The translations under genes were made by a program, and so were the position numbers. From Chloroflexota bacterium (GTDB lineage: Bacteria; Chloroflexota; UBA6077): DNA of 11,459 nt. The DNA is taken from positions 1 through 11,459 of the forward strand of contig JAJYKO010000092.1 in NCBI GenBank assembly GCA_021788565.1, given 5' to 3'. Under the pieces are notes generated by a model, which worked only from the letters and a program-made list of their open reading frames with translations, was not told the DNA's origin and did not search any database. Below, one piece after another: positions 1 to 11,459 of this stretch. Within the stretch, counting starts at the first letter, position 1. Every line of letters starts with the position of its first letter.

Positions 1-1
1 C

Positions 2-283
2 GCTCAGCGGGTAGCCGAGGGGCTGGGGCTGCCATTTCTGCCCGTAGTGACAAAGGTACGCGACAACGAGCCGCAGAAGCTACAGCAGAACCGTTACCAT
101 CAATGTGCTAACCTGGATGGCGTCTTCCGGGTCGACGGCGGCGTGCGTGCTGACGCCGTGCTGCTCATGGACGACGTAGTCGACTCGGGCTGGACCATGA
201 CGGTGGTAGCAGCTCTCTTACGGCAGGCCGGAGCAGGCGTGGTCTGGCCGGTAGCCCTGGCGACTACCAGCACCGGGGATTGA
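2..283 (+). CDS. PRTase-domain C-terminus, probably RecQ-helicase fusion (5' truncated)
   Basis: The frame is open from the window edge and ends at TGA 281-283, giving about 93 C-terminal residues. The segment VLLMDDVVDSGWT followed by a hydrophobic helix is the PRPP-binding loop of type I phosphoribosyltransferases (hydrophobic stretch, D-D, then a small residue, G and T). The preceding stretch VRDNEPQKLQQNRYHQCANL and the ending LATTSTGD match, from memory, the tail of actinobacterial RecQ-family ATP-dependent DNA helicases that carry a ComF-like PRTase domain. The helicase part lies outside the window, so the fusion is inference. A stand-alone PRTase such as a ShosT-type protein is the alternative. 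An internal GTG at 47 is unlikely to be the start because the conserved frame continues upstream. The dprA-like gene begins 1 bp after the stop, which implies translational coupling. Confidence 0.75.
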   Translation, partial: AQRVAEGLGLPFLPVVTKVRDNEPQKLQQNRYHQCANLDGVFRVDGGVRADAVLLMDDVVDSGWTMTVVAALLRQAGAGVVWPVALATTSTGD

Positions 284-284
284 T

Positions 285-1634
285 ATGAGTATCACCAATC
301 AGGCTCAGGCGATTCTCCTCCTCACGGCTCACCTGGGTAAGCCGAGCAAGAACGACCCCAGGCCACTCGGCCCTGTGGAGTGGGGCAGGTTTGCCCAGTG
401 GCTACATGATCGGGGCATAGTGCCAGAAACGCTACTCAGGCAGGATCCCGGGTCTATCCTGGAGGGGTGGATTGATTCGGCGATCACGCTGGAGCGAATT
501 CGCTACCTGCTGGGTCGGGCTGGTGCCCTGGGCCTGGTGATGGAGCGTTGGGAGCGGGCCGGTCTCTGGGTCATCACTCGATCCGATGTCGACTACCCTG
601 TGCGGTTGAAGAGGCGCCTCAAGACAGAGGCGCCGCCTTTCTTCTTTGGAGCTGGCGACCGTGGGCTACTCAATCGGGGAGGAGTAGCTGTAATTGGCTC
701 TCGGGAAGCGAGTGAGGAAGACCTGGCATTTGCTTCGCGTCTGGGCGCAGCAGCGGCGCTGGAACATCTTTCCGTGGTGTCGGGCGGAGCGCGCGGGGTG
801 GACGAGGCCGCCATGTTGGGAGCGCTTGAGTTGCAGGGCGCGGTTGTGGGGGTCCTGGCCGACAACCTCCTGAGGAGCGCGACCTCATCCAAGTACCGGA
901 AGGGCCTGATGTCCGGTAATCTGGCGCTTATCTCGCCCTTCAATCCTGAAGCCGGGTTCGACGTAGGCAACGCCATGGCGCGCAACAGATACATCTACTG
1001 CCTCGCGGACGTTGCCATCGTAATTGCCACCGGCGCCGGCAAGGGCGGCACCTGGCACGGCGCAACTGAGAACCTGAGAAACCGCTGGGTGCCGCTCTGG
1101 GTCAAGCCCGCGAGGGACAAAGCATCGGGCAACTCTGCCCTGGTGGGCAAGGGAGCCCGATGGCTACCAGAGTCGGACTTCAAGCTCTCCGGCCTGTTCG
1201 CACCCACCGAGGATCAGGAGGTCGGCGGGCAGAAGGGGCTGTTCGACGTGGAGCCTCTGCCTTCAGATGCGACGTCAGATGCGACGTCAGATGCGCACGC
1301 GGCACCCTCCCACGTGCTGTCCGTCTCCGATAGCCCGCCTCCCTACACGGCGGAAGATCGCACGGGAGGGCCACGCTCGACCGGCGCGGCGGACTCGGCG
1401 GACCTGGATCTGTACGGACCATTCCTCGCTCGGCTGGAGCGGCTCTCCACCGGAGCGCCTGTCACGCCGGAGCAGTTGATGGAGGTTCTGGGCATCACGA
1501 GGTCGCAGATCGGTGCCTGGCTCAGCCGCGCGCTTGAGGAGGGGCGAGTGAGAAAGCTGAACAAGCCCGTGCGGTACGAGTGGCGCTCGGGGCAGGTCAG
1601 ACAGCCCTCCATGTTCGACGGTGCGGACTCGTAG
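285..1634 (+). CDS. dprA: DprA/Smf-like DNA-processing protein
   Basis: A 449-residue protein with the Rossmann-like DprA core. VAVIGSR lies at about residues 134-140, SGGARGVDEA at 167-176, and ARNRYIYCLADVAIVIATG at 232-250, followed by GKGGTWHGA. Canonical DprA binds single-stranded DNA and loads RecA during transformation. The core is preceded by about 130 residues that include a helical N-terminal region. After the core comes a disordered Ser/Asp/Pro linker (about 310-372) containing SDAT-SDAT-SDAH, encoded by a 12-bp tandem repeat. Residues about 375-435 look like the DprA winged-helix domain (VTPEQLMEVLGITRSQIGAW). The gene sits 1 bp after a PRTase/helicase gene and 1 bp before hsdS. 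This placement suggests a defence-associated paralog rather than the housekeeping competence protein. DprA-PRTase pairing is known from the ShosTA antiphage/toxin-antitoxin system, so a similar role is plausible but unproven. Confidence 0.88.
   Translation: MSITNQAQAILLLTAHLGKPSKNDPRPLGPVEWGRFAQWLHDRGIVPETLLRQDPGSILEGWIDSAITLERIRYLLGRAGALGLVMERWERAGLWVITRSDVDYPVRLKRRLKTEAPPFFFGAGDRGLLNRGGVAVIGSREASEEDLAFASRLGAAAALEHLSVVSGGARGVDEAAMLGALELQGAVVGVLADNLLRSATSSKYRKGLMSGNLALISPFNPEAGFDVGNAMARNRYIYCLADVAIVIATGAGKGGTWHGATENLRNRWVPLWVKPARDKASGNSALVGKGARWLPESDFKLSGLFAPTEDQEVGGQKGLFDVEPLPSDATSDATSDAHAAPSHVLSVSDSPPPYTAEDRTGGPRSTGAADSADLDLYGPFLARLERLSTGAPVTPEQLMEVLGITRSQIGAWLSRALEEGRVRKLNKPVRYEWRSGQVRQPSMFDGADS
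1263..1295 (+). repeat. 12-bp tandem repeat in the DprA linker
   Basis: The unit TCAGATGCGACG occurs at 1263-1274 and 1275-1286, then as a partial third copy at 1287-1295. It is in frame and encodes SDAT, SDAT, SDA(H). It lies in the low-complexity linker between the Rossmann core and the winged helix, so changes in copy number would alter only linker length. Confidence 0.9.
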
Positions 1635-1635
1635 G

Positions 1636-3081
1636 ATGATCGATGGCCTCAAGCCCTATCCCGCCTACAAGGACTCCGGCGTACCGTGGTTAGGGCAAGT
1701 GCCGGAGCACTGGGGGATCGAGCGGGCCAAGTGGCTGTTCCGCAAGATGAATCGAGAAGTTTGCGAAGACGACGGCGTGGTGACATGCTTCCGCGACGGA
1801 ATGGTCACCCTGAGGAAGAATAGACGTGAGCGCGGGTTCACGGAGGCACTGAAGGAGATCGGCTACCAAGGCGTGCATAAGGGTGATCTCGTTATCCACG
1901 CGATGGACGCCTTCGCCGGTGCGGTTGGTGTCTCCGACTCCCATGGCAAGTGCACGCCGGTTTACTCCGTCTGTCGACCCTCTGCCAACGCAAACCCATG
2001 GTTCTATGCTCACATCGTGCGTGAGATGGCTCGGAGCCAGTGGATACTCGCTCTGGCCAAGGGTATACGCGAGCGTTCTACGGACTTTCGTTTCGATGCC
2101 TTCGCGTCACAGTTTGTCCCGTTGCCACCCCGTGCCGAGCAAGATGCCCTCGCCCGCTTTCTCGACTATGCCGACCGCCGTATCCGGCGCTACCTCGTGG
2201 CAAAGAGGAAGCTGATCGCGCTCTTGAACGAGCAGAAGCAGGCGATCATCAACCAGGCCGTGACTCGCGGCCTCGATCCCAACGTTCGCCTCAAGCCCTC
2301 AGGCGTGGAGTGGCAGGGCGACGTGCCTGAGCACTGGAGCGTGATGCCATTGCGACGCGTGACTCTTGAGCGGTGCGATGGACCGTTTGGCTCCGGCCTG
2401 AAGTCCGCGCACTACACGGATCACGGCATCAGGGTGGTCCGCCTCCAAAACATTGGGCAGGGGGAGTTTCAGGGGTCAGACGCAGCCTTCATCTCTCCGT
2501 CGTACTACGCGACACTGGGAGACCACACGGTCATGGAGGGGGATGTCTTGATCGCGGGACTCGGCGACGAGAACCATCCCGCAGGCAGGTCATGCGTGGC
2601 GCCGAAAGACATCGGACCGGCGATGGTAAAGGCGGACTGCTTCAGGTTCCGGCTCGATGACCGACGGGTCGATCCTCAGTTTGCGGCACACTACCTTTCG
2701 GCTACGGCATCCGCCGCCACCCAAGTCCTGTCGAGGGGCGCAACTCGGCAAAGGATAAACCTGCAGTCGATGGCTGGGCGCCCCATCGCGTTCCCCATGT
2801 TGTTGGAGCAGCATCAGATTGTCGCCCGTTTGGGCCGAGATCTCGCTCCCCTAGAAGCAGCGATGGTTCGCTTCCGAACCCAGGTCGAAGCCATACGCGA
2901 GTACCGCACCCGTCTCATCGCCGACGTGGTGACGGGCAAGCTGGACGTGCGGGAAGCGGCCGCCAACCTGCCGGAACAGGGCGAGGAAGCGGTGTCAGTT
3001 GAAGAGGAGCACCTCCTGGGAGAGAATTGCGTGGAGGACGAAGGCGCCGAGCCGGAAGCTACAGCAGAGGACGAAACGTGA
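1636..3081 (+). CDS. hsdS: Type I restriction-modification specificity subunit HsdS
   Basis: A 481-residue DNA-recognition subunit that would direct the HsdM/HsdR complex to a bipartite target site. It shows the usual two-fold organisation. The opening LKPYPAYKDSGVPWLGQVPEHW (5-26) recurs as LKPSGVEWQGDVPEHW (219-234). Each is followed by a target recognition domain (about 27-163 and 235-385) and a long helical conserved region: PPRAEQDALARFLDYADRRI (164-183) onward, and LEQHQIVARLGRDLAPLEAA (390-409) onward. It ends with an acidic tail of about 40 residues (EEEHLLGENCVEDEGAEPEA), an unusual extension. ATG 1636 is chosen because it starts 1 bp after the dprA stop and gives the common short N-terminus. 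An in-frame GTG at 1621 is possible. No strong Shine-Dalgarno is seen, so coupling is likely. The two recognition domains are dissimilar, implying an asymmetric target. The partner hsdM is not in the window. Confidence 0.94.
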   Translation: MIDGLKPYPAYKDSGVPWLGQVPEHWGIERAKWLFRKMNREVCEDDGVVTCFRDGMVTLRKNRRERGFTEALKEIGYQGVHKGDLVIHAMDAFAGAVGVSDSHGKCTPVYSVCRPSANANPWFYAHIVREMARSQWILALAKGIRERSTDFRFDAFASQFVPLPPRAEQDALARFLDYADRRIRRYLVAKRKLIALLNEQKQAIINQAVTRGLDPNVRLKPSGVEWQGDVPEHWSVMPLRRVTLERCDGPFGSGLKSAHYTDHGIRVVRLQNIGQGEFQGSDAAFISPSYYATLGDHTVMEGDVLIAGLGDENHPAGRSCVAPKDIGPAMVKADCFRFRLDDRRVDPQFAAHYLSATASAATQVLSRGATRQRINLQSMAGRPIAFPMLLEQHQIVARLGRDLAPLEAAMVRFRTQVEAIREYRTRLIADVVTGKLDVREAAANLPEQGEEAVSVEEEHLLGENCVEDEGAEPEATAEDET

Positions 3082-4544
3082 CCACCGACCGTTCCACGGA
3101 TTACCTTATCGGTCTCGTCCAGGAGCTTCGCAAGCTTCCCAATGAGACCGAGTGGGTCGAGTTCAAGAGGAACAAGGCCGAACCGCAGGAGATTGGCGAA
3201 TACATCTCGGCCCTCTCTAACTCTGCGGCCCTGACCGGAAAAGCCTTCGCTTACGTGGTCTGGGGCATAGATGACGTCACCCACGACGTGGTGGGCACCT
3301 CTTTCTCCCCCGGCCTCGAGAGGGTTCATAGCGAAGAGCTTGAGAACTGGCTGCTGCGGCAGCTGTCCCCACGGATCAACTTCCGGTTCTTTGCTTCCGA
3401 GGCGGATGGTCTCCCGCTGATTGTCCTTGAGATCGCTCGCGCTTCTGGCCACCCTGTCCAATTCAATGGGCAAGAGTTTATCAGGGTCGGTTCTTACAAG
3501 AAGCGGCTCAGGGAGTATCCTGAAAAGGAACGAGAGCTGTGGCGCATCTTTGACCAGAAGCCGTTCGAGTGCATCGTCGCGGCCGATGGCCTGGCTGCCC
3601 GGGATGTGCTGGGACTTCTGGAATATCCCTCCTATTTCGACCTCCTCCACCTGCCACTTCCAGCATCGCGCGACCGCATCTTGCAGGCACTGGCGGCGGA
3701 TGACCTCATCTTGAGGTCTCCCGACGGGAAGTGGGACATAACCAACCTGGGTGCAATCCTCCTTGCCAAGCGCCTCAAGGAGTTCCGAACGCTGTCCCGC
3801 AAAGCGATCCGAGTGATTATTTACAAGGGCAACAGCCGGGTAGAGACGCTACGGGAGCAGGCTGGGGCCAAAGGATACGCGGTCGGGTTCGAGGGTCTCA
3901 TCGACTACATCAGCGCTCAGATTCCTTCGAACGAGGTGATGGGGAAAGCGCTCCGAAAGACGGTCCCCATGTATCCAGATCTGGCCGTGCGGGAGCTGGT
4001 GGCCAACGCCTTCATCCATCAGGATTTCCACGTCACTGGCAGCGGTCCTATGGTGGAGATCTTCGACGATCGGATGGAGATAACCAATCCCGGCGAGCCG
4101 CTGGTGAGCACCGATCGCTTTCTGGACTCACCTCCTCGATCTCGCAACGAGATGCTCGCTTCCTTTCTCCGACGGGCCGGAGTCTGCGAGGAACGAGGCA
4201 GTGGAGTAGACAAGGTGGTCTCCCAGATGGAAGCGTTTCAGCTCCCTGCACCAATCTTCGAGGTAGTGGAAGGTAATACGCGAGCGGTGCTGCTGGCTCA
4301 TCGTCCGCTCACGCGGATGGACAAGACAGATCGGATTCGGGCGTGTTACCTCCATGCGTCCCTCAAGTATGTTTGTCGTGACTTCATGACCAACACTTCG
4401 CTACGCGAGCGATTTGGAATTGAACCCAGGAACAGCGCTACCGCCTCACGACTGATCAAGGAAGCCACGGAGGCAGGATTCGTTCGACCCCACGACCCGG
4501 ATTCGGCTCGTAGGCTGATGAAGTACGTGCCATTCTGGGCATGA
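3078..4544 (+). CDS. AlbA_2 (Schlafen-type) domain protein with HATPase_c_4-like domain
   Basis: A 488-residue predicted ATP-binding/transcriptional-regulator-type protein. An AlbA_2 domain (about 22-145) begins with ETEWVEFKRN and contains GYISALSN-like (EYISALSNSA) and FIRVGSY motifs. The middle (about 165-290) is a helical/winged-helix-like region. Residues about 300-400 form an HATPase_c_4-like module, with VRELVANAFIHQDF as N-box, FDDRMEITNPGEP as the adenine-binding D/G motif, and ERGSGVDKV as the glycine box. A C-terminal winged-helix-like segment (about 415-488) follows. The start GTG 3078 overlaps the hsdS stop by 4 nt (GTGA) and is preceded by AGAGGA at 3066-3071 with a 6-nt spacer. 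An upstream in-frame start at 3027 lies inside hsdS and is less likely. Proteins of this family are common accessory genes in type I restriction loci. The activity is unknown; regulation, RNA/DNA cleavage (Schlafen core) or ATP-dependent modulation of restriction are possibilities. Confidence 0.88.
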   Translation: MTTDRSTDYLIGLVQELRKLPNETEWVEFKRNKAEPQEIGEYISALSNSAALTGKAFAYVVWGIDDVTHDVVGTSFSPGLERVHSEELENWLLRQLSPRINFRFFASEADGLPLIVLEIARASGHPVQFNGQEFIRVGSYKKRLREYPEKERELWRIFDQKPFECIVAADGLAARDVLGLLEYPSYFDLLHLPLPASRDRILQALAADDLILRSPDGKWDITNLGAILLAKRLKEFRTLSRKAIRVIIYKGNSRVETLREQAGAKGYAVGFEGLIDYISAQIPSNEVMGKALRKTVPMYPDLAVRELVANAFIHQDFHVTGSGPMVEIFDDRMEITNPGEPLVSTDRFLDSPPRSRNEMLASFLRRAGVCEERGSGVDKVVSQMEAFQLPAPIFEVVEGNTRAVLLAHRPLTRMDKTDRIRACYLHASLKYVCRDFMTNTSLRERFGIEPRNSATASRLIKEATEAGFVRPHDPDSARRLMKYVPFWA

Positions 4545-4561
4545 GTGATCCGACGATGGCA

Positions 4562-4579
4562 TTTGATGGGTATTTGATG
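4562..4579 (+). repeat. 18-bp direct repeat, copy 1 (TTTGATG pair)
   Basis: TTTGATGGGTATTTGATG is repeated exactly at 4671-4688, 109 bp away. Each copy contains two TTTGATG heptamers with an 11-bp period, about one helical turn. That is the geometry of a direct-repeat operator. The first copy begins 17 nt after the stop of the AlbA_2 gene. Confidence 0.85.
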
Positions 4580-4670
4580 CAGAGGCCTTCGAGAGCACTT
4601 CAGCCAGACTGGCCTAGCCAGAAATGCGCACAGAACCGGTGATTCTCGGCCGATTGCCAGCGCAGGTTTG

Positions 4671-4688
4671 TTTGATGGGTATTTGATG
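4671..4688 (+). repeat. 18-bp direct repeat, copy 2 (TTTGATG pair)
   Basis: Exact copy of the repeat at 4562-4579, again with two TTTGATG heptamers 11 bp apart. It lies about 70 bp upstream of the hsdR start, so it could be an operator for hsdR or a scar of an earlier rearrangement. Confidence 0.85.
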
Positions 4689-4758
4689 GCGGGACGGTTC
4701 AGGGCTGAGCGGAAGAACGTATCCGAGGGCAGAAGTGTAGCGCAAACTGGAGGGAGCC

Positions 4759-7746
4759 TTGCCCAGCACCGACACCACCGAGAAGGGACTGGAGAGCCTT
4801 ATCGTCACCGCGATGGTCGGCACCGCCGCTTCGCCCATTGGAGGGGCGATCCAGGATGAGGGCGTCCCTTACGACGGGACCGGCTGGCTGCTCGGGGACG
4901 CCAGGGACTACGACCGCGAGTACGCCGTGGACCTTGCCCAGCTTCGCGCCTTCCTGGAGGCGACTCAGCCGAAGGTGGCCGAGGCGCTCGATCTCGACCA
5001 CGACAGCCCGACTCGCCGGAAGTTCCTGGCTCGACTCCAGGGCGAAATCACCAAGCGCGGCACCATCGACGTACTGCGCCGCGGCATCAAGCACGGCCCC
5101 CACAGCCTGGACCTCTTCTACGGCACCCCCTCGATAGGCAACAGGGCCGCTGCCGAGCGCTACCTGCACAACCGCTTCAGCGTCAGCCGGCAACTCAGGT
5201 ACAGCATCGACGAGAGCCAGCTTGCCCTGGACCTCTGCCTCTTCATCAACGGCCTGCCCGTCTTCACCTTCGAACTCAAGAACAGCCTCACCAAGCAGAC
5301 CGTCGATGATGCCGTCCAGCAGTACAAGCGCGACCGCGATCCGAAGGAGCTTCTGTTTCAGTTCGGGCGCTGCATCGCCCACTTCGCCGTGGACGACAGT
5401 GAGGTGCGCTTCTCCACGGCCCTGAAGGGCAAAGAGTCCTGGTTCCTGCCATTCAACCAGGGCTGGAACGACGGGGCCGGCAACCCTCCCAACCCCGACG
5501 GCATCAAGACCGACTACCTGTGGAAGCGCATCCTGACCAGGGACGGCCTCACCGACATCCTGGAGAACTACTGCCAGGTCGTCGAGCCGAAGGACGAGAA
5601 GACCGGCAGGAAGAAGCGGGAGCAGATCTTCCCCCGCTACCACCAACTGGACGTGGTGCGCAGGCTCCTGGCCGATGCGGCTGGTCATGGGGTCGGTAGG
5701 CGCTACCTGATCCAGCACTCGGCCGGTAGCGGCAAGTCCAACTCCATCGCCTGGCTCGCCCACCAGCTTATCGGCCTACGGCATGACGGGAGGGAGGTCT
5801 TCGACTCCATCATCGTGGTCACCGACCGGCGCATCCTCGACCAGCAGATCAGGGACACCATCAAGCAGTTCGCCCAGGTCGGCTCGACGGTAGGTCACGC
5901 CGATAGCTCGGGCGACCTGCGCAGGTTCATCGAGGGTGGCAAGAAGATCGTCATCTCCACGGTACAGAAGTTCCCCTTCATCCTCCAGGAGATCGGGGAC
6001 GAGCACCGAGGCAGGAACTTCGCGATCATCATCGACGAAGCCCACTCCAGCCAGGGCGGCAAGAGTTCCGCGAAGATGAGCATGGTGCTCTCCGAGGCGG
6101 GGTCGGAGGAGGACGACGAGACCATCGAGGACGTGATCAACCGGATCATGGAGAGCCGGAAGATGCTCCCCAACGCGAGCTACTTCGCTTTCACAGCTAC
6201 CCCCAAGAACAAGACCCTGGAGATCTTCGGCGAGGCGTGCCCCGAGGGCGAGAAGGTGCGCCATCGCCCCTTCCACAGCTATACCATGAAGCAGGCGATC
6301 CAGGAGGGCTTCATCCTGGACGTGCTCGCCTACTACACGCCGGTCAACTCCTACTACCGGCTGGTCAAGACCGTCCCGGGAGATCCGGAGTTCGACGTGA
6401 AGCGGGCTCGGAAGAAGCTACGCCGCTACGTGGAGGGCCACGACTACGCGATCCGCCTCAAGGCCGAGATCATGGTGGACCACTTTAGCGAGCAGGTCAT
6501 CGCCCTCGGTAAGATCGGGGGGCAGGCGAGGGCGATGGTGGTGACGACGGGGATCGAGAGGGCGATCCAGTACTACCACGCCATCAGCGACTACCTCTCC
6601 GAGTCAAAGAGTCCCTACAGCGCCATCGTCGCCTTCTCGGGAGAGCACGAGTACGGCGGGGCGAAGGTGACCGAGGCATCCCTCAACGGCTTTGCCAGCA
6701 ACCTCATCCCCGACAGGATCGTGGAGGACCCCTACCGTTTCCTGATCTGTGCCGACAAGTTCCAGACTGGATATGACGAGCCGCTCCTCCACACCATGTA
6801 CGTGGACAAGGTGCTCGCGGGCATCAAGGCGGTCCAGACCCTCTCCCGCCTCAACCGCGCCCACCCCAAGAAGCACGACGTGTTCGTGCTGGACTTCATG
6901 AACGACGCCGACACGATCCGCATGGCCTTCGAGGAATACTACAGGACGACGATCCTGGCCGACGAGACCGACCCGAACAAGCTGCACGACCTGAAGGGCG
7001 AGCTTGACGGCTACCAGGTGTACTCGGACGGCCAGATCCAGGCCGTCGTGGAACTCTACCTCGCTGGCGCTAATAGGGATAAGCTCGATCCCATCCTGGA
7101 TGCCTGCGTCGCCGTCTACAAGGACGAACTCGACGAGGACGGCCAGGTGGCCTTCAAGGGCAAGGCCAAAGCCTTCCTGCGCACCTACGGCTTCCTCTCC
7201 TCGATCCTGCCCTACACCAACGCCGAGTGGGAGAAGCTCTCGATCTTCCTGGACTTCCTCGTGCCGAAGCTGCCCGCCCCTGTCGAGGAGGATCTCTCCA
7301 GGGGCATCCTGGAGTCCATCGACATGGACAGCTACAGGGTGGAGAAGCAGGCGGTGGTGAGGATACAGCTACCCGACGAGGACGCCGAGATCGAGCCGGT
7401 GCCGGCAGGTGCGGTCGGGGGCAAGCCCGAGCCGGAACTGGAGCGGCTGTCCGACATCCTGAAGACCTTCAACGACCAGTTCGGGAACATCCCCTGGACC
7501 GATGGTGACCGCGTCCGCAAGTTGATCACCGAGGAGATACCGGCCAGGGTGGCGGCGGACACGGCCTACCAGAACGCGAAGAAGAACTCCGACCGGCAGA
7601 ACGCCCGCATCGAGCACGACAAGGCTCTCCTGCGGGTCATGACCGCCCTGCTATCCGACGACACCCAGCTTTTCAAGGAGTTCAGCGACAACGAGTCCTT
7701 CAAGCGCTGGCTGACGGATACGGTGTTTGCGCAGACGTACTCCTGA
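4759..7746 (+). CDS. hsdR: Type I restriction endonuclease subunit HsdR
   Basis: A 995-residue motor and nuclease subunit that translocates DNA with ATP and cleaves it once bound to an HsdM-HsdS complex. The N-terminal PD-(D/E)xK nuclease has its acidic residue in LALDLC (about 158), the FELKN motif (E172, K174) and the following QQYKRDR (188-193) typical of type I R subunits. The SF2 motor has Walker A SAGSGKS (321-327), DEAH (426-429), the motif III-like FAFTATPKN (477-484), and motif VI around QTLSRLNRAHPKKHD (about 693-707). A helical C-terminal region follows. The start is TTG 4759, preceded by GGAGGGAG at 4749-4756; there is no good in-frame ATG nearby. Length is normal and all key residues are present, so the subunit looks functional. 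Its third codon positions are noticeably richer in G/C than those of hsdS and the AlbA_2 gene. Confidence 0.96.
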   Translation: MPSTDTTEKGLESLIVTAMVGTAASPIGGAIQDEGVPYDGTGWLLGDARDYDREYAVDLAQLRAFLEATQPKVAEALDLDHDSPTRRKFLARLQGEITKRGTIDVLRRGIKHGPHSLDLFYGTPSIGNRAAAERYLHNRFSVSRQLRYSIDESQLALDLCLFINGLPVFTFELKNSLTKQTVDDAVQQYKRDRDPKELLFQFGRCIAHFAVDDSEVRFSTALKGKESWFLPFNQGWNDGAGNPPNPDGIKTDYLWKRILTRDGLTDILENYCQVVEPKDEKTGRKKREQIFPRYHQLDVVRRLLADAAGHGVGRRYLIQHSAGSGKSNSIAWLAHQLIGLRHDGREVFDSIIVVTDRRILDQQIRDTIKQFAQVGSTVGHADSSGDLRRFIEGGKKIVISTVQKFPFILQEIGDEHRGRNFAIIIDEAHSSQGGKSSAKMSMVLSEAGSEEDDETIEDVINRIMESRKMLPNASYFAFTATPKNKTLEIFGEACPEGEKVRHRPFHSYTMKQAIQEGFILDVLAYYTPVNSYYRLVKTVPGDPEFDVKRARKKLRRYVEGHDYAIRLKAEIMVDHFSEQVIALGKIGGQARAMVVTTGIERAIQYYHAISDYLSESKSPYSAIVAFSGEHEYGGAKVTEASLNGFASNLIPDRIVEDPYRFLICADKFQTGYDEPLLHTMYVDKVLAGIKAVQTLSRLNRAHPKKHDVFVLDFMNDADTIRMAFEEYYRTTILADETDPNKLHDLKGELDGYQVYSDGQIQAVVELYLAGANRDKLDPILDACVAVYKDELDEDGQVAFKGKAKAFLRTYGFLSSILPYTNAEWEKLSIFLDFLVPKLPAPVEEDLSRGILESIDMDSYRVEKQAVVRIQLPDEDAEIEPVPAGAVGGKPEPELERLSDILKTFNDQFGNIPWTDGDRVRKLITEEIPARVAADTAYQNAKKNSDRQNARIEHDKALLRVMTALLSDDTQLFKEFSDNESFKRWLTDTVFAQTYS

Positions 7747-7832
7747 ACAATCGATAGTCAGGGCTGTGCTTTCGCGGGCGCCAAACTATGCTCATCGTAG
7801 GAGAAATCATGGTTCAAAGTAACCGATGACTG

Positions 7833-7860
7833 GCTGCCGGAAGAGGATTCGAACCTCTGT
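7833..7860 (+). repeat. Left attachment-site repeat (attL): partial tRNA-Gln 3' end
   Basis: A 28-bp sequence beginning GCTGCCGG and ending ACCTCTGT, identical to 9940-9967. Read on the minus strand, it is the T-arm and 3' acceptor strand of tRNA-Gln. The match stops at 7861, before the anticodon arm, so this is not a tRNA gene. This is what site-specific integration into a tRNA 3' end leaves at the distal edge of an element. It lies 86 bp after the hsdR stop. Confidence 0.85.
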
Positions 7861-7932
7861 TACCAGGAAGGTGCCTGCAAGGGTCCGCGGGAGCCTTCTC
7901 GGCCTACGGTTTCGTGCGTGGCGGGCATGGTT

Positions 7933-7965
7933 AGAGGGCGTTTCCGGCTCTCGGAATCGCCCTCT
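7933..7965 (+). terminator. Strong hairpin, possible terminator
   Basis: AGAGGGCG (7933-7940) pairs with CGCCCTCT (7958-7965). TTCCG (7942-7946) pairs with CGGAA (7952-7956). One T-T mismatch separates the two stems and the loop is 5 nt. On the plus strand it is followed by CTTGTTG, only a weak T-tract. It could end read-through from hsdR, or it could be a structured site of the element. Confidence 0.45.
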
Positions 7966-7989
7966 CTTGTTGCCCTCCGAATCGGCTAC

Positions 7990-8007
7990 GGGGTCAATTT
8001 GGGGGTC
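7990..8007 (+). repeat. GGGGTCA-type motif, left copy (putative integrase arm site)
   Basis: GGGGTCAATTTGGGGGTC matches GGGGTCAGTTAGGGGGTC at 9838-9855 at 16 of 18 positions and in the same orientation. Each copy holds two GGGGTC-like half-sites 11-12 bp apart. The copies lie about 130 bp inside the left repeat and about 85 bp inside the right one, as expected for arm-type binding sites of a tyrosine recombinase. Confidence 0.5.
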
Positions 8008-8089
8008 GGATCCCATCTCATGTGGATCTAAGAGGTGGCGCCGGCGCGGCGTAGAAAACAGGGAGATCCCCGCTGTAGACGGTCTGGAT

Positions 8090-8124
8090 GGATGGACTCA
8101 TCACCGGAAGGAGGTGATCCATCC
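8090..8124 (+). promoter_or_regulatory. Hairpin around an extended Shine-Dalgarno
   Basis: GGATGGA (8090-8096) pairs with TCCATCC (8118-8124). TCACC (8101-8105) pairs with GGTGA (8113-8117). There is a 4-nt bulge (CTCA) and a 7-nt loop. The 3' half contains AAGGAGGTGATCCA (8108-8121), complementary to the very 3' end of 16S rRNA. Folding would bury part of the ribosome-binding site, which suggests translational control of the small ORF at 8126. No regulator is known. Confidence 0.4.
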
Positions 8125-8125
8125 G

Positions 8126-8266
8126 ATGAAGATCATCACCGTTTCCAGTGGAGACATCCATATCTTGGCACGGGGACGCGAAACGCAATGGGCTAAGCGG
8201 CGATCCGGACGACTACCGACTGCGTGGCCTCAGTCTCTTCGGGCACCGGCTCGCCGTGGGCGATGA
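8126..8266 (+). CDS. Possible 46-residue small ORF behind a perfect SD
   Basis: ATG 8126 stands 11 nt after AGGAGG within an unusually extended 14-nt Shine-Dalgarno. The product begins MKIITVSSGDIHILARGRET and turns into a low-complexity basic tail that overlaps the hicB coding region in antisense. The first 20 or so residues look protein-like while the rest does not, so this may be the 5' stump of a gene cut off when hicB was joined. No family is recognised. It may not be expressed. Confidence 0.3.
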   Translation: MKIITVSSGDIHILARGRETQWAKRRSGRLPTAWPQSLRAPARRGR

Positions 8267-8432
8267 GGTCCTCGATGTAGAGGGAGATCGCGTCCTTCGC
8301 CATGGAGATCGCCTCCTCCAGGGTGTCTCCCTCGGTCACGCAGCCCGGCAGGGCAGGGACGGTAACGGTATAGCCGCCACCTTCGTCGGCCGGGGCGGGA
8401 TGCAGGATTATGGAGTAGCTACGCTCCTTCAC
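8193..8432 (-). CDS. hicB: HicB-family antitoxin, short form
   Basis: A 79-residue antitoxin that would bind and block HicA. YSIILHPAPADEGGGYTVTV followed by PALPGCVTEGDTLEEAI is the characteristic HicB partial RNase H fold (about residues 5-60), with GC at the strand turn and the EA-helix after it. It ends in a short Glu/Pro tail and a VVVRIAA strand. The C-terminal ribbon-helix-helix or helix-turn-helix DNA-binding domain of longer HicB proteins is absent, so DNA binding must come from elsewhere if the operon is autoregulated. It starts at GTG (8430-8432), overlapping the hicA stop by 4 nt, with AGGAGG at 8438-8443 five bases upstream. Confidence 0.93.
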   Translation of the reverse strand: MKERSYSIILHPAPADEGGGYTVTVPALPGCVTEGDTLEEAISMAKDAISLYIEDLIAHGEPVPEETEATQSVVVRIAA

Positions 8433-8656
8433 AGTAACCTCCTCAGATCATCGGCCGTGAGTCCGGCCTGGTCGATGATGGATGCCAGTGTGCCGGTCCG
8501 AAGGTCGCGCCCTCCGTGGTATGGGACCACGACGGCGCCCTTCTTGGTCGGATGACGGAGAATGTGATGGCTGCCCGACTGGCGGGAGACTTCCCAGCCG
8601 TCCCCGCGCAGCGCGCGCAGCAGCTCGCCCGCGGTGATCCTCGGCAGCCTAGGCAC
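8429..8656 (-). CDS. hicA: HicA-family mRNA interferase toxin
   Basis: A 75-residue toxin with a double-stranded-RNA-binding-like fold that cleaves mRNA in the cytoplasm. The family signature is clear: an N-terminal PRITAGELLRALRGDGWEV helix-strand, then RQSGSHHILRHP containing the catalytic histidine region (SGSHH), then a VVVPYHGGRDLRTGTLASII segment and a final helix. Length is normal for HicA and the gene looks intact. The GTG start (8654-8656) overlaps the end of the ribbon-helix-helix gene by 8 nt. The toxin-before-antitoxin order is typical of hicAB. Within the element it probably serves maintenance or phage defence. Confidence 0.93.
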   Translation of the reverse strand: MPRLPRITAGELLRALRGDGWEVSRQSGSHHILRHPTKKGAVVVPYHGGRDLRTGTLASIIDQAGLTADDLRRLL

Positions 8657-8831
8657 GGGCGGTGTCCTGTGGCCTCTTCTCGGGCTTGGGGTTCTGCTCC
8701 AGCGCCCACTCCAGCAGCCACAGAACCGCCGCTGTGCGGGTCTGGAAGCGGTTTTCGAACCTGAAATCCTCGATCCGGTCGAGAAACTTGGGCTCGACTA
8801 CCATGGTGATCACCGGCTTACTGCTGGGCAT
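8649..8831 (-). CDS. Small ribbon-helix-helix DNA-binding protein
   Basis: A 60-residue protein. PVITMVVEPKFLDRIEDFRF forms a short strand and first helix, and TRTAAVLWLLEWALEQNPKP forms the second helix. This resembles small MetJ/Arc/CopG-type repressors of phage and mobile elements, which bind DNA as dimers through the N-terminal strand. ATG 8831 is preceded by AGGAGGTG (8839-8846) at 7 nt and by a good promoter, so this start is secure. It is the first gene of a three-gene operon with hicA and hicB. Because this HicB lacks a DNA-binding domain, this protein is the obvious candidate for operon repressor, possibly also of the divergent integrase promoter. That role is inference. Confidence 0.8.
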   Translation of the reverse strand: MPSSKPVITMVVEPKFLDRIEDFRFENRFQTRTAAVLWLLEWALEQNPKPEKRPQDTARA

Positions 8832-8855
8832 TCAGCGCCACCTCCTATCCAGCGT

Positions 8856-8884
8856 ATTGTAGGGTACATATCCACTATTGACAA
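8856..8884 (-). promoter_or_regulatory. Sigma-70-type promoter of the RHH-hicAB operon
   Basis: On the minus strand, TTGTCA (complement of 8879-8884) and TACAAT (complement of 8856-8861) are separated by 17 nt. Transcription would begin near 8849, just before the Shine-Dalgarno of the ribbon-helix-helix gene. Its -35 overlaps that of the plus-strand promoter. Confidence 0.75.
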
Positions 8885-8910
8885 GGCGATATGCTGCGCA
8901 TATGATATGT
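8866..8910. promoter_or_regulatory. Cluster of GATATGY half-sites (putative operator)
   Basis: ACATATC at 8866-8872 (inverted), GATATGC at 8888-8894, GCATAT at 8898-8903 (inverted, partial) and GATATGT at 8904-8910 cover the spacers and one -10 of both divergent promoters. Ribbon-helix-helix repressors typically occupy such repeated short half-sites. Confidence 0.5.
8878..8906 (+). promoter_or_regulatory. Sigma-70-type promoter toward the integrase
   Basis: TTGACA (8878-8883), a 17-nt spacer and TATGAT (8901-8906) make a near-consensus promoter. Its spacer and -10 hold the inverted repeat ATATGC-TGC-GCATAT (8889-8903), a likely operator. Expected start of transcription is about 8913. Confidence 0.75.
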
Positions 8911-8941
8911 TCCATTGCGACAAAGAACCGGCGACCGAGAA

Positions 8942-9892
8942 GTGACCTCGACCGCCGGCATTCGGCACGGGACGCGCCGATCGGTCTACGGCCGCACGGA
9001 GAAAGCGGCCATCAAGGCGCGTAACGATCTTTTGCGGACCCTCACCGTCGACGACATCGAGGATGCCGAGGCGGTGCTGCTGGGTCGCTTGGCCGCCTCA
9101 GCTGTCCACGTCGCGCACGGCATGCTCCACAGTGCCCTGAAGGAGGCCAAACGCCGGCGACTGATCACTGCAGATCCCATGGCGGAAATGGCCTCTCCGA
9201 AGGCGGATGAGCAGCTGATGGACGTCCTGTCCGAGGCGGAGGTCGAAAGGCTGGCGGCCGACACGGGCAGGGACGCTATCACTGTCTGTGGGTAGCGCTG
9301 GTCACGACGGGCCTGAGACTACGTGAGGCCCTCGGGCTTCGCTGGCGCGACGTCGACCTGGAGAACCGGACGGTCGTGGTGAGGGCCCAGCTGCCGCGAC
9401 GTTGGGCCGACTCGGAGGAGCTGCTGCGCCCCAAGTCGAGCTCGTCCCGGCGGACCGTGGCCATCTCCGCAGGGCTCGCCGATCTTATGGCGGCCCTCGA
9501 GGCCAGACTGGCCCAGGGGCGGGACTTCGCGGCAGGTTCGTGGCGCGACAGGCTCGGCCTGGTCTTCACCACGGCGACTGGGGCTCCCCTCTACGGATCC
9601 CAGGCTCGCCAGGGGGTGGCTGAGAGCGGCCAGGCGCCTGGGATTTGCCCCGATCCGGATCCACGACCTCCGGCACACCTTCGCCACGATCCTAATAACG
9701 CGCGGGGTGCATCCCAAGCTCGTGTCCGAGATGCTGGGCCACGCCGATGTCTCCATGACAATGCGCATTTACGCCCACGTCCTCCCCTCGATGAGTGCCG
9801 ATGGGGCCGCCCAGATGGAGACCTTCTTCGCCGTTAAGGGGTCAGTTAGGGGGTCAAACCCGCTCGTACTGCTTCCCGGGGTCGAGGAATGA
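8942..9892 (+). pseudogene. Tyrosine recombinase (phage-type integrase), frameshifted and internally deleted
   Basis: A site-specific recombinase remnant. The frame starting near GTG 8942 (or TTG 8915) gives RHGTRRSVYGRTEKAAIKAR. It then jumps to HVAHGMLHSALKEAKRRRLI, so much of the core-binding domain normally found between these parts is missing. Near 9285 the frame shifts by -1: the first frame stops at 9295, while another continues as LWVALVTTGLRLREALGLRW with the first catalytic Arg. Near 9600 it shifts back by +1 to give RIHDLRHTFATILITRG (HDLRH at 9662-9676), LGHADVS (His at 9740-9742) and IYAHV (Tyr at 9770-9772). All catalytic residues survive, but no single frame encodes them. The two shifts cancel, so sequencing error in a GC-rich read cannot be excluded; the N-terminal deletion still argues for decay. 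It sits between a strong promoter and a terminator, next to its presumed target tRNA-Gln. Confidence 0.85.
9838..9855 (+). repeat. GGGGTCA-type motif, right copy (putative integrase arm site)
   Basis: GGGGTCAGTTAGGGGGTC is in the same orientation as the left copy at 7990-8007 (16 of 18 identical). It lies inside the last codons of the integrase remnant, 85 bp before the right 28-bp repeat. Confidence 0.5.
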
Positions 9893-9895
9893 GGC

Positions 9896-9928
9896 GGCCC
9901 CGTGCGTAAAACGGCCTTGCACGGGGCC
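9896..9928 (+). terminator. Hairpin terminator after the integrase
   Basis: GGCCCCGTGC (9896-9905) and GCACGGGGCC (9919-9928) form a perfect 10-bp stem with a 13-nt loop, starting 4 nt after the integrase stop and followed by TATTTGG. It could also stop minus-strand transcripts leaving tRNA-Gln, though no T-tract follows on that side. Confidence 0.65.
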
Positions 9929-9939
9929 TATTTGGAGGA

Positions 9940-9967
9940 GCTGCCGGAAGAGGATTCGAACCTCTGT
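9940..9967 (+). repeat. Right attachment-site repeat (attR) within tRNA-Gln
   Basis: 28 bp identical to 7833-7860. It covers the discriminator base, the 3' acceptor strand and the T-arm of the minus-strand tRNA-Gln. The sequences diverge immediately afterwards (T at 7861, A at 9968). Confidence 0.85.
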
Positions 9968-10011
9968 AACGGGATCCAAAGTCCCGAGTCCTACCGCTAG
10001 ACGATCCGGCA
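9941..10011 (-). tRNA. tRNA-Gln (UUG)
   Basis: A 71-nt tRNA on the minus strand. The acceptor TGCCGGA pairs with TCCGGCA, with G as discriminator. The D-stem GTC/GAC closes the loop TAGCGGTAG. The anticodon stem CGGGA/TCCCG closes the loop CTTTGGA, giving anticodon TTG (Gln). A 4-nt variable loop and T-stem AGAGG/CCTCT around TTCGAAT follow. A U1-A72 pair is usual for bacterial tRNA-Gln. CCA is not encoded. The gene is intact despite the integration, because the element supplied an identical 3' end. Confidence 0.96.
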
Positions 10012-10047
10012 ATGGGACGGGAGGGGTGAAATTCCGCTCCGGTTCCT

Positions 10048-10053
10048 ATTATA
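10048..10053 (-). promoter_or_regulatory. -10 box of the tRNA-Gln promoter
   Basis: Read on the minus strand, this is a perfect TATAAT lying 36 nt upstream of the mature tRNA 5' end. No good -35 hexamer is seen at the expected spacing in the GC-rich sequence upstream. Confidence 0.55.
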
Positions 10054-10109
10054 AGGCATCGGCGGGCGCGCGCTCACCTGTCTAGCAAGGCAGGCGGCCG
10101 GAACGGAGC

Positions 10110-10135
10110 GGGCCGGCAGAGCCGCCGGCCCCTAC
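10110..10135 (-). repeat. GTAGGGGC-type palindromic repeat, spacer copy
   Basis: This 26-bp stretch ends in GCCGGCCCCTAC and is the exact reverse complement of 11130-11155, inside the downstream coding region. It is internally palindromic (GCCGGC...GCCGGC around AGAGCC). It looks like a dispersed intergenic repeat. Confidence 0.8.
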
Positions 10136-10202
10136 AACTGGCGTTCGAGTTGGCCAGGCCAGTAGGACGTGGTACAGCGGGCACAGCGTCAAGGCTGAAA
10201 GC

Positions 10203-10216
10203 CCGCCGGCCCCTAC
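10203..10216 (-). repeat. GTAGGGGC-type repeat, partial second spacer copy
   Basis: CCGCCGGCCCCTAC repeats the terminal 14 bp of the copy at 10110-10135 in the same orientation, 81 bp away. The preceding bases (GGCTGAAAGC) are only loosely similar. Confidence 0.65.
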
Positions 10217-10269
10217 CACCGTTCCGGCTGCCGACGGCTCTCGCAAGTCATCTGCTCCCCCACCCCCCA

Positions 10270-10287
10270 CTGCGACAAAGGTCGCAG
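10270..10287. promoter_or_regulatory. Small perfect hairpin upstream of the MTHFR-family gene
   Basis: CTGCGAC and GTCGCAG form a 7-bp stem with an AAAG loop, about 85 bp before the start codon. There is no T-tract. It could be an operator or a leader structure; its role is unknown. Confidence 0.35.
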
Positions 10288-10370
10288 ACCAATGATTCCC
10301 GTGCCACTAGACTCCTGTAGTAGAATAGTAAAGAAAGCTGCTACTTGCTATTGGGGCTCGGGGGTGCGGT

Positions 10371-11459
10371 ATGGTAGGCGACGTCGAGAGTCCGCAGGAC
10401 AGCGCAATCCTAAGTCGACAGGTCTGGCCGTGGACCTTCCGCGCGCGGCTGGCGGAGCCGGGAAGCTTCGTCCGCGTCGTGGAGTTGGTGACGACCCGCG
10501 GCCTGCTCACCGAGCCCTCTGCCGCGAAGGTCGTCTCCACGGCTCTGGAACTCACGGAGATCGGCATCGGCGATGCCCTCAGCATCACGGACAACGCCGG
10601 GGGCCATCCCAAGATAGCCCCGGAGTCGCTGGGTTCGATGCTGCTGGAACGCGCCCAGGACGTGATCATCCACCTCACCTGCAAGGACCTGAACCGCAAC
10701 GGTCTGGAGAGCCGGGCCTGGACCCTCGCCGACGCGGGCTTTCAGAACATCCTCTGCCTGTCTGGCGATCATCCGGTGGATGGATACATGGGGCAACCGG
10801 GCGCCGTCTTCGACGTCGATTCCGTTGGACTGCTCCACATGCTCGACGACATGAACCACGGGATGAGGGTGATCAAGCCGCGCAGGGGTGAGCCCGATCG
10901 TCTTCCGCCTACCGACCTCTTCCTGGGCGCGACAGTGTCTCCGTTCAAGCTGCAGGAGCGCGAGCTGATTCCCCAGTACCTGAAGCTGCAATCCAAGGTC
11001 GCCAACGGTGCCCGATTCATCATTACGCAGGTGGGCTACGACTCCCGCAAGTGGGATGAGCTTCTGCGGTACCTCGATGGAGAGACGGGGAGAGTGGGCG
11101 ATGCGGGGACGCGGGGACGTGGGGATCCTGTAGGGGCCGGCGGCTCTGCCGGCCCGTCCGGGCGGGGGGACACGGCCGTCCGCCCCTACAAACCGAAGGA
11201 GAGGGGATTCAGTCCCCAACCCCCATACCTCATCGCCAACGTGTGCGTCCTCACGGGATCGCTGGCTCGGCTCTTCAACCGGGGCGCCGTCCCGGGCGTC
11301 GTCGTGAGCGACGAACTGCTGGCGATCACCGAGAAGCAGGCGGCCTCATCGGATAAGGGCAAGGCCTTCTTCCATGAGCTCGCGGCAAAGCAGATCGCCA
11401 TCGCCCGCGGGCTCGGATACCGGGGCGCCTACATCAGCGGACACCTCGCGCCGGCCGAG
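10371..11459 (+). CDS. metF: Methylenetetrahydrofolate reductase family protein (3' truncated)
   Basis: 363 residues are visible and the frame is open at the window end. The sequence fits the MTHFR (MetF-type) TIM barrel of folate one-carbon metabolism, which reduces methylene-THF to methyl-THF: VELVTTRGLL near the N-terminus, DALSITDNAGG (about 66-76), VIIHLTCKDLNRNGLESRAW (about 100-119), ILCLSGDHP (about 129-137), FDVDSVGLLHML, LGATVSPFK, GARFIITQVGYDSRKWDELL (about 213-232), then YLIANVCVLTGSLARLFNRG and SDKGKAFFHELAAKQIAIAR. This divergent family also occurs in corrinoid-linked one-carbon pathways, so the exact substrate is uncertain. ATG 10371 is the first plausible start after in-frame stops; its ribosome-binding site is weak. 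Residues about 237-285, between a helix and the next strand, are a Gly/Arg/Pro-rich insertion encoded by low-complexity and palindromic repeat DNA, kept in frame. Confidence 0.8.
   Translation, partial: MVGDVESPQDSAILSRQVWPWTFRARLAEPGSFVRVVELVTTRGLLTEPSAAKVVSTALELTEIGIGDALSITDNAGGHPKIAPESLGSMLLERAQDVIIHLTCKDLNRNGLESRAWTLADAGFQNILCLSGDHPVDGYMGQPGAVFDVDSVGLLHMLDDMNHGMRVIKPRRGEPDRLPPTDLFLGATVSPFKLQERELIPQYLKLQSKVANGARFIITQVGYDSRKWDELLRYLDGETGRVGDAGTRGRGDPVGAGGSAGPSGRGDTAVRPYKPKERGFSPQPPYLIANVCVLTGSLARLFNRGAVPGVVVSDELLAITEKQAASSDKGKAFFHELAAKQIAIARGLGYRGAYISGHLAPAE
11130..11189 (+). repeat. 60-bp palindromic repeat inserted in frame in the MTHFR-family gene
   Basis: The element opens with GTAGGGGC (11130-11137) and closes with GCCCCTAC (11182-11189). 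Its first 26 bp are the exact reverse complement of 10110-10135. At 60 bp it preserves the reading frame and encodes VGAGGSAGPSGRGDTAVRPY (residues 254-273). Upstream is a GGGGACG low-complexity run (11105-11124). Confidence 0.75.

Follow-up and report, generated by a model that had tools for sequence, protein, structure and literature searches.

Why does a bacterial tRNA gene have an exact second copy of its 3′ end 2.1 kb away, and what lies between the two copies? The question is raised by a contig of a Chloroflexota bacterium (JAJYKO010000092.1, assembly GCA_021788565.1), of which a stretch of 11,459 nucleotides was analysed as a whole and is called the window here. Positions 7833-9967 are bounded by a 28-bp repeat whose right copy lies in a tRNA-Gln gene. 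They hold a set of features observed together: the repeats, the tRNA, arm-like pairs at both ends, a broken integrase and toxin-antitoxin genes. We conclude that this segment is very probably the decayed remainder of one element that was inserted by a tyrosine integrase into the tRNA-Gln 3′ end. The features on which this conclusion is built are as follows.

7833..7860, unstranded: left 28-bp repeat, a displaced tRNA-Gln 3′-end fragment and proposed attL core; the bases to its left restore CCA.
7990..8008, plus strand: left paired arm-like site, GGGTCA-N6-GGGTCG from 7991, 129 bp from the left repeat.
8915..9295, plus strand: integrase remnant, piece 1 (central domain), profile positions 130-212 of 390, phrog_1 at 9.7e-08.
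9295..9624, plus strand: integrase remnant, piece 2, in the other frame, PF00589 at 29.0 bits, profile positions 227-296.
9617..9892, plus strand: integrase remnant, piece 3, in the first frame again, PF00589 at 54.2 bits, profile positions 305-379.
9838..9856, plus strand: right paired arm-like site, GGGTCA-N6-GGGTCA from 9839, within the integrase 3′ end, 83 bp from the right repeat.
9896..9928, unstranded: hairpin between the integrase and the tRNA, with 10-bp stems 9896-9905 and 9919-9928.
9940..9967, unstranded: right 28-bp repeat, the proposed attR core, within tRNA-Gln.
9940..10011, minus strand: tRNA-Gln(TTG) by ARAGORN, intact, CCA not encoded.

The two repeat copies match exactly over 28 bp and at 30 of 31 positions over 31 bp, the mismatch being at position 29. 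Exactly two copies exist in the window when up to 3 mismatches are allowed and none arose in 200 dinucleotide shuffles; the match is beyond chance. From repeat start to repeat start, the extent is 2,107 bp. The right copy forms the 3′ end of the minus-strand tRNA-Gln, which Rfam places at 9941-10011 with 61.7 bits. The exact 28-mer was found in 0 viral contigs and in 0 of the 17 loci compared.

Joining the flanks through the repeat, that is, the left flank with 9968 onward, gives a 74-nt tRNA-Gln with the CCA encoded, whereas the occupied gene has 72 nt without CCA. This pattern fits an original 3′ end that was displaced to 7833 and a gene that was repaired by the element's own copy, and it is modest evidence for them.

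The pattern GGGTCR-N6-GGGTCR occurs twice in the window, once just inside each end of the element and both times on the integrase strand. With up to 3 mismatches allowed, 2 of 200 shuffles likewise gave two matches. The predicted arm-to-arm distance after joining is 259 bp. It falls within the 212-272 bp range of the comparison set, namely viral contigs L101 (254 bp), L105 (212 bp), L142 (230 bp) and L226 (272 bp), and the corresponding distance is 252 bp in an element of another viral contig, L040.

The integrase is broken into three pieces that lie in two frames and follow the profile order. Both piece 2 and piece 3 exceed the PF00589 cut-off of 27.1 bits, and profile positions 1-129 of 390 are without match. 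Arm-binding domains are usually located in the N-terminal third of such integrases. Since this third is absent from the profile match, the putative arm-binding part is unmatched. The hairpin that separates the remnant from the tRNA was not among the sites reported by a terminator scan.

L040 supplies an independent element for comparison. When the third integrase piece was searched against viral contigs, 517 candidates were found to encode a relative, and the best 80 of the 517 were examined. ARAGORN called 12 tRNAs in 9 of these 80 loci, and only that of L040 (IMG/VR contig IMGVR_UViG_3300010283_000184) has a second 3′-end copy. Common to both elements are the tRNA 3′-end repeats, an integrase beside the tRNA, GGGTCA pairs inside both ends and a hairpin between integrase and tRNA, which has 18 bp in L040. 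The L040 element differs in its size (4.1 kb, at 1217-5384), its 47-bp repeat, its tRNA-Arg, its integrase, which is whole, and its cargo; it also encodes a 394-aa protein for which Pfam gave nothing over the cut-off. Across the 636 kb of the 80 loci there are three matches to the paired pattern with A or G as its last base and a spacer of 4-7: one inside each L040 end, at the corresponding place, and one in L082. A mean of 2.05 was obtained from base shuffles of these loci, so the count is not in excess and the placement is what matters.

Support for reading the repeats as the attachment (att) sites attL and attR of one element comes from the arm-like pairs inside the two ends, the distance between these pairs, the CCA regained on joining the flanks, and L040 as an independent case. 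The first-pass annotation had claimed from the letters alone that the 28-bp repeats are identical, that the right one lies within an intact tRNA-Gln, that an integrase remnant stands beside it and that the repeats are att sites of an element integrated at the tRNA 3′ end. The exact match and the shuffles, the ARAGORN and Rfam calls, the two pieces over the PF00589 cut-off among three in profile order, and the agreement of arms, spacing, CCA and L040 bear these claims out.

A possible course of events can be outlined. The incoming DNA would have brought along the final 28 nt of the gene, leaving the tRNA-Gln whole and its original 3′ end displaced to 7833. Each junction would then keep one attP arm with a GGGTCR pair about one helical turn apart, to which the N-terminal domain of the integrase would bind. 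Later, the N-terminal part of the integrase and its frame would have been lost, an order of events that we infer, and the HicAB toxin-antitoxin operon would have been retained, perhaps because its loss is harmful. Such an element would be unable to move itself, but an integrase that recognises the same arms and core might in principle excise it in trans. As the integrase is broken, self-excision is unlikely, so any circles would need an integrase acting in trans.

A wider and rather unlikely proposition is that many tRNA-targeting integrases, as one broad class, share a signature of GGGTCA pairs 11-12 bp apart to either side of a tRNA-fragment core. By this signature, the ends of integrase-less elements could be recognised, and scraps such as the 2.1-kb segment could still be moved in trans by a class member with the same core. 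Motif scans at periods 11, 12 and 15, with a scrambled pair and with a TTTGATG pair were each made on a sample of 120 listed viral contigs. A pair counted as integrase-linked when it lay on the integrase's strand, between −300 and +500 relative to the 3′ end of that gene. Open reading frames (ORFs) of at least 80 aa were searched by HMMER, which replaced a narrow regular expression for integrases, with a profile trained on 84 distinct sequences.

The exact GGGGTCA pair at period 11 was integrase-linked in 5/120 contigs, against 0.42 by random placement, with 9 holding an integrase; detection there is partly circular, since the training set includes the integrases of 5 period-11 contigs. At period 12, where the set is unaffected by this, the linked contigs numbered 6/120, against 0.36 by random placement, and 12 held an integrase. 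GGGGTCA words at period 15 were linked in 0/120, but only 2 of these contigs hold an integrase. An earlier query set at period 11, with ORFs of at least 60 aa, had an integrase in 8/120 contigs and the motif at its 3′ end in 6.

Two exact pairs about 200-270 bp apart occur in five listed contigs (L101, L105, L142, L226 and L247), whereas in the other multi-pair contigs the copies adjoin one another or recur at shorter intervals. L101, L105, L142 and L226 are integrase-linked and have a tRNA-like core between the two pairs. A short tRNA-like pattern is near the pair in 7 of the 11 integrase-linked contigs and absent in 4. Separately, L192 and L167 are one 40,036-bp viral contig with GGGGTCA pairs near both ends and an integrase at one end, a layout as expected of an integrated prophage.

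Several results weigh against these readings. The first C of the restored CCA is shared, so the match would arise by chance about 1 time in 16. A search of genome contigs with the MTHFR-like protein, encoded right of tRNA-Gln, gave 15 loci with a best identity of 46%, and neither a close relative nor an empty site was seen. With the narrow regular expression, none of 88 motifs, from 80 of the 120 listed period-11 contigs, had an integrase detected upstream. Even with the profile, 111/120 and 108/120 of the listed exact-pair contigs show no integrase in the stretch examined; the integrase share is no higher than for the unrelated TTTGATG repeat (12/120), and the excess concerns placement alone. 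In L247, 196 bp separate the two pairs, and no integrase was detected. Finally, the scrambled pair GTGGCGA-N4-GTGGCGA was integrase-linked in 12/120 contigs, with 2.25 expected; an integrase is held by 42/120 of these contigs (L339-L458), and 22 more have the pair by the 3′ end on the opposite strand. Hence the scrambled pair cannot serve as a neutral control, and GGGTCA is not alone in forming paired words beside integrases. GTGGCGA-N4-GTGGCGA probably serves integrases of some other group as their arm motif.

Reading paired GGGTCA arms generally as a signature is possibly new. No paper on paired GGGTCA integrase arms was found in open PMC text, which is weak evidence on novelty. The accessible part of PMC6109161, on arm-type domains, has no GGGTCA-like motif, and a GGGGTCA string in one open PMC paper is, in its accessible part, a portion of a cos end.

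The insertion may not have been the first at this tRNA. The 2.1 kb could be the tRNA-proximal member of a tandem array, with PsyrTA and a type I restriction cluster as an older element in the same tRNA-Gln and a further fragment beyond the left edge of the window. We hold this to be nearly an even matter, leaning slightly to the negative; it extends and does not contradict the explanation by one integrase-inserted element. The left flank is typical accessory DNA, comprising in order the PsyrT end, PsyrA, HsdS, an SLFN/AlbA ATPase-like gene and HsdR (1-7746), and the cluster with PsyrTA may have been inserted earlier. Tandem accretion at the ends of genes, including those for tRNAs, is described in the accessible text of PMC5704250. 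However, the window has only two tRNA-fragment copies, no integrase was found among the left ORFs tested, no paired motif lies left of 7833 in the window, and the CCA-restoring flank equally fits an original chromosomal neighbour. The two leftmost features are as follows.

2..283: PsyrT end.
285..1634: PsyrA, match at 2.5e-147.

Alternatively, the repeats may once have bounded a much larger prophage or integrative and conjugative element, of which an internal deletion left the ends and the toxin-antitoxin operon. This is compatible with the integrase-mediated insertion and is a possibility that we are inclined to doubt. It would account for the missing N-terminal part of the integrase, and larger sizes do occur, as nine integrase-linked exact-pair contigs with a listed length are 15 to 52 kb and the 40-kb contig of L192 and L167 has a pair near both ends. 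Against it, no structural, replication or transfer family was matched by Pfam or PHROGs among the ORFs tested in the 2.1 kb, and L040 is an example of a class member of about 4 kb whose integrase is whole. Ten further short ORFs of the 2.1 kb gave no Pfam match over the cut-off.

That the left copy is instead the eroded terminus of another tRNA-Gln gene, produced by tandem duplication, is highly improbable, for although it is tRNA-Gln sequence, the identity ends sharply after the 3′ 28 nt with no visible trace of a 5′ half, and the integrase and the arm pairs would be left unexplained.

Within the element so read, the cargo next to the left arm is a toxin-antitoxin operon, and promoter-like sites separate it from the integrase remnant.

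8193..8432, minus strand: HicB-like antitoxin, 79 aa, one domain over the cut-off (Pfam PF15919, 3.5e-16; phrog_497, 3.8e-21).
8429..8656, minus strand: HicA toxin, 75 aa (Pfam PF07927, 2e-22; phrog_353, 7.2e-21).
8649..8831, minus strand: 60-aa repressor-like ORF overlapping hicA (phrog_4738 'transcriptional repressor', 7.9e-08).
8856..8906, unstranded: divergent sigma-70-like promoters, plus 8878-8906 (11/12) and minus 8884-8856 (10/12), by consensus match only.

The order on the minus strand is the 60-aa ORF, hicA and hicB, and neighbours overlap by a few bases. The operon of this type proposed between the repeats is confirmed, HicA and HicB being identified by both Pfam and PHROGs with their domains adjoining in one operon. 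The 60-aa ORF has no Pfam, NCBIfam or PADLOC match and only two weak matches in plasmids by tblastn; by eye, it looks ribbon-helix-helix-like. The adjacent HicA and HicB domains resemble those of HicAB systems, but here HicB is one 79-aa domain and a separate repressor-like ORF stands ahead of hicA. Given a separate repressor-like ORF and a HicB of one short domain, the DNA-binding function may have been split off from HicB. The two promoter-like sites were the only ones found in 7700-10400, where shuffles gave a mean of 0.5.

The surroundings have features of their own. PsyrTA directly precedes hsdS, the SLFN/AlbA ATPase-like gene and hsdR, as though placed within a type I restriction operon. 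The window does not include hsdM, and the left part of the defence cluster lies outside it. HsdR has relatives in 2,115 plasmid records, which are uninformative on lineage. The best plasmid match is from Meiothermus with 77.3%, and other genes lie between its hsdS and hsdR. Between the SLFN/AlbA-like gene and hsdR, TTTGATG-N4-TTTGATG occurs twice (4562-4579 and 4671-4688), 109 bp apart, against 0.04 expected. This pair was considered as an att site of the same class and rejected: 12 of the 120 listed viral contigs with it hold an integrase, and 0/120 have the pair by the integrase 3′ end.

On the right, a 28-bp perfect inverted repeat is found at 10109-10136 and 11129-11156, with its right arm inside the MTHFR-like frame, which stays open. 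The MTHFR-like protein had no relative in viral contigs. The tRNA-Gln matched five Azospirillum records among plasmids at 82.5% identity.

One contig thus shows an attachment core, both arm-like sites and a displaced tRNA end in compact form, and at this one tRNA a toxin-antitoxin scrap and a defence cluster are neighbours. Such a case suggests that decayed islands for which neither a relative nor a working integrase is available can be called with the help of paired arm sites.

Among known systems, the element is best read as a decayed tRNA-integrated island, of the cis-mobilizable element (CIME) or defective-prophage kind. It resembles the Islander-type islands of the accessible text of PMC4383910 in having an intact tRNA and a displaced 3′ fragment in the same orientation, with the fragment on the 3′ side and integrase sequence between them. 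Its 2,107 bp is just over the lower limit of the 2-200 kb given there for islands. It differs in that the integrase is broken, the length is very short and no empty site was seen in the search of genome contigs.

A CIME, as defined in the accessible part of PMC5704250, keeps its attL and attR, has lost its integration genes and the transfer genes of an ICE or IME ancestor, and is mobilised in cis by another element. Judged by sequence, the element shows the first two of these features: both att sites would be retained as the repeats plus one arm-like pair per end, and the integrase gene is broken. No transfer gene was matched among the ORFs tested. Here the integrase is a remnant rather than gone, and the ancestor could be conjugative, phage or satellite. 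Overall, the element belongs to an already-known kind, of which it is a small, well-marked and ordinary example.

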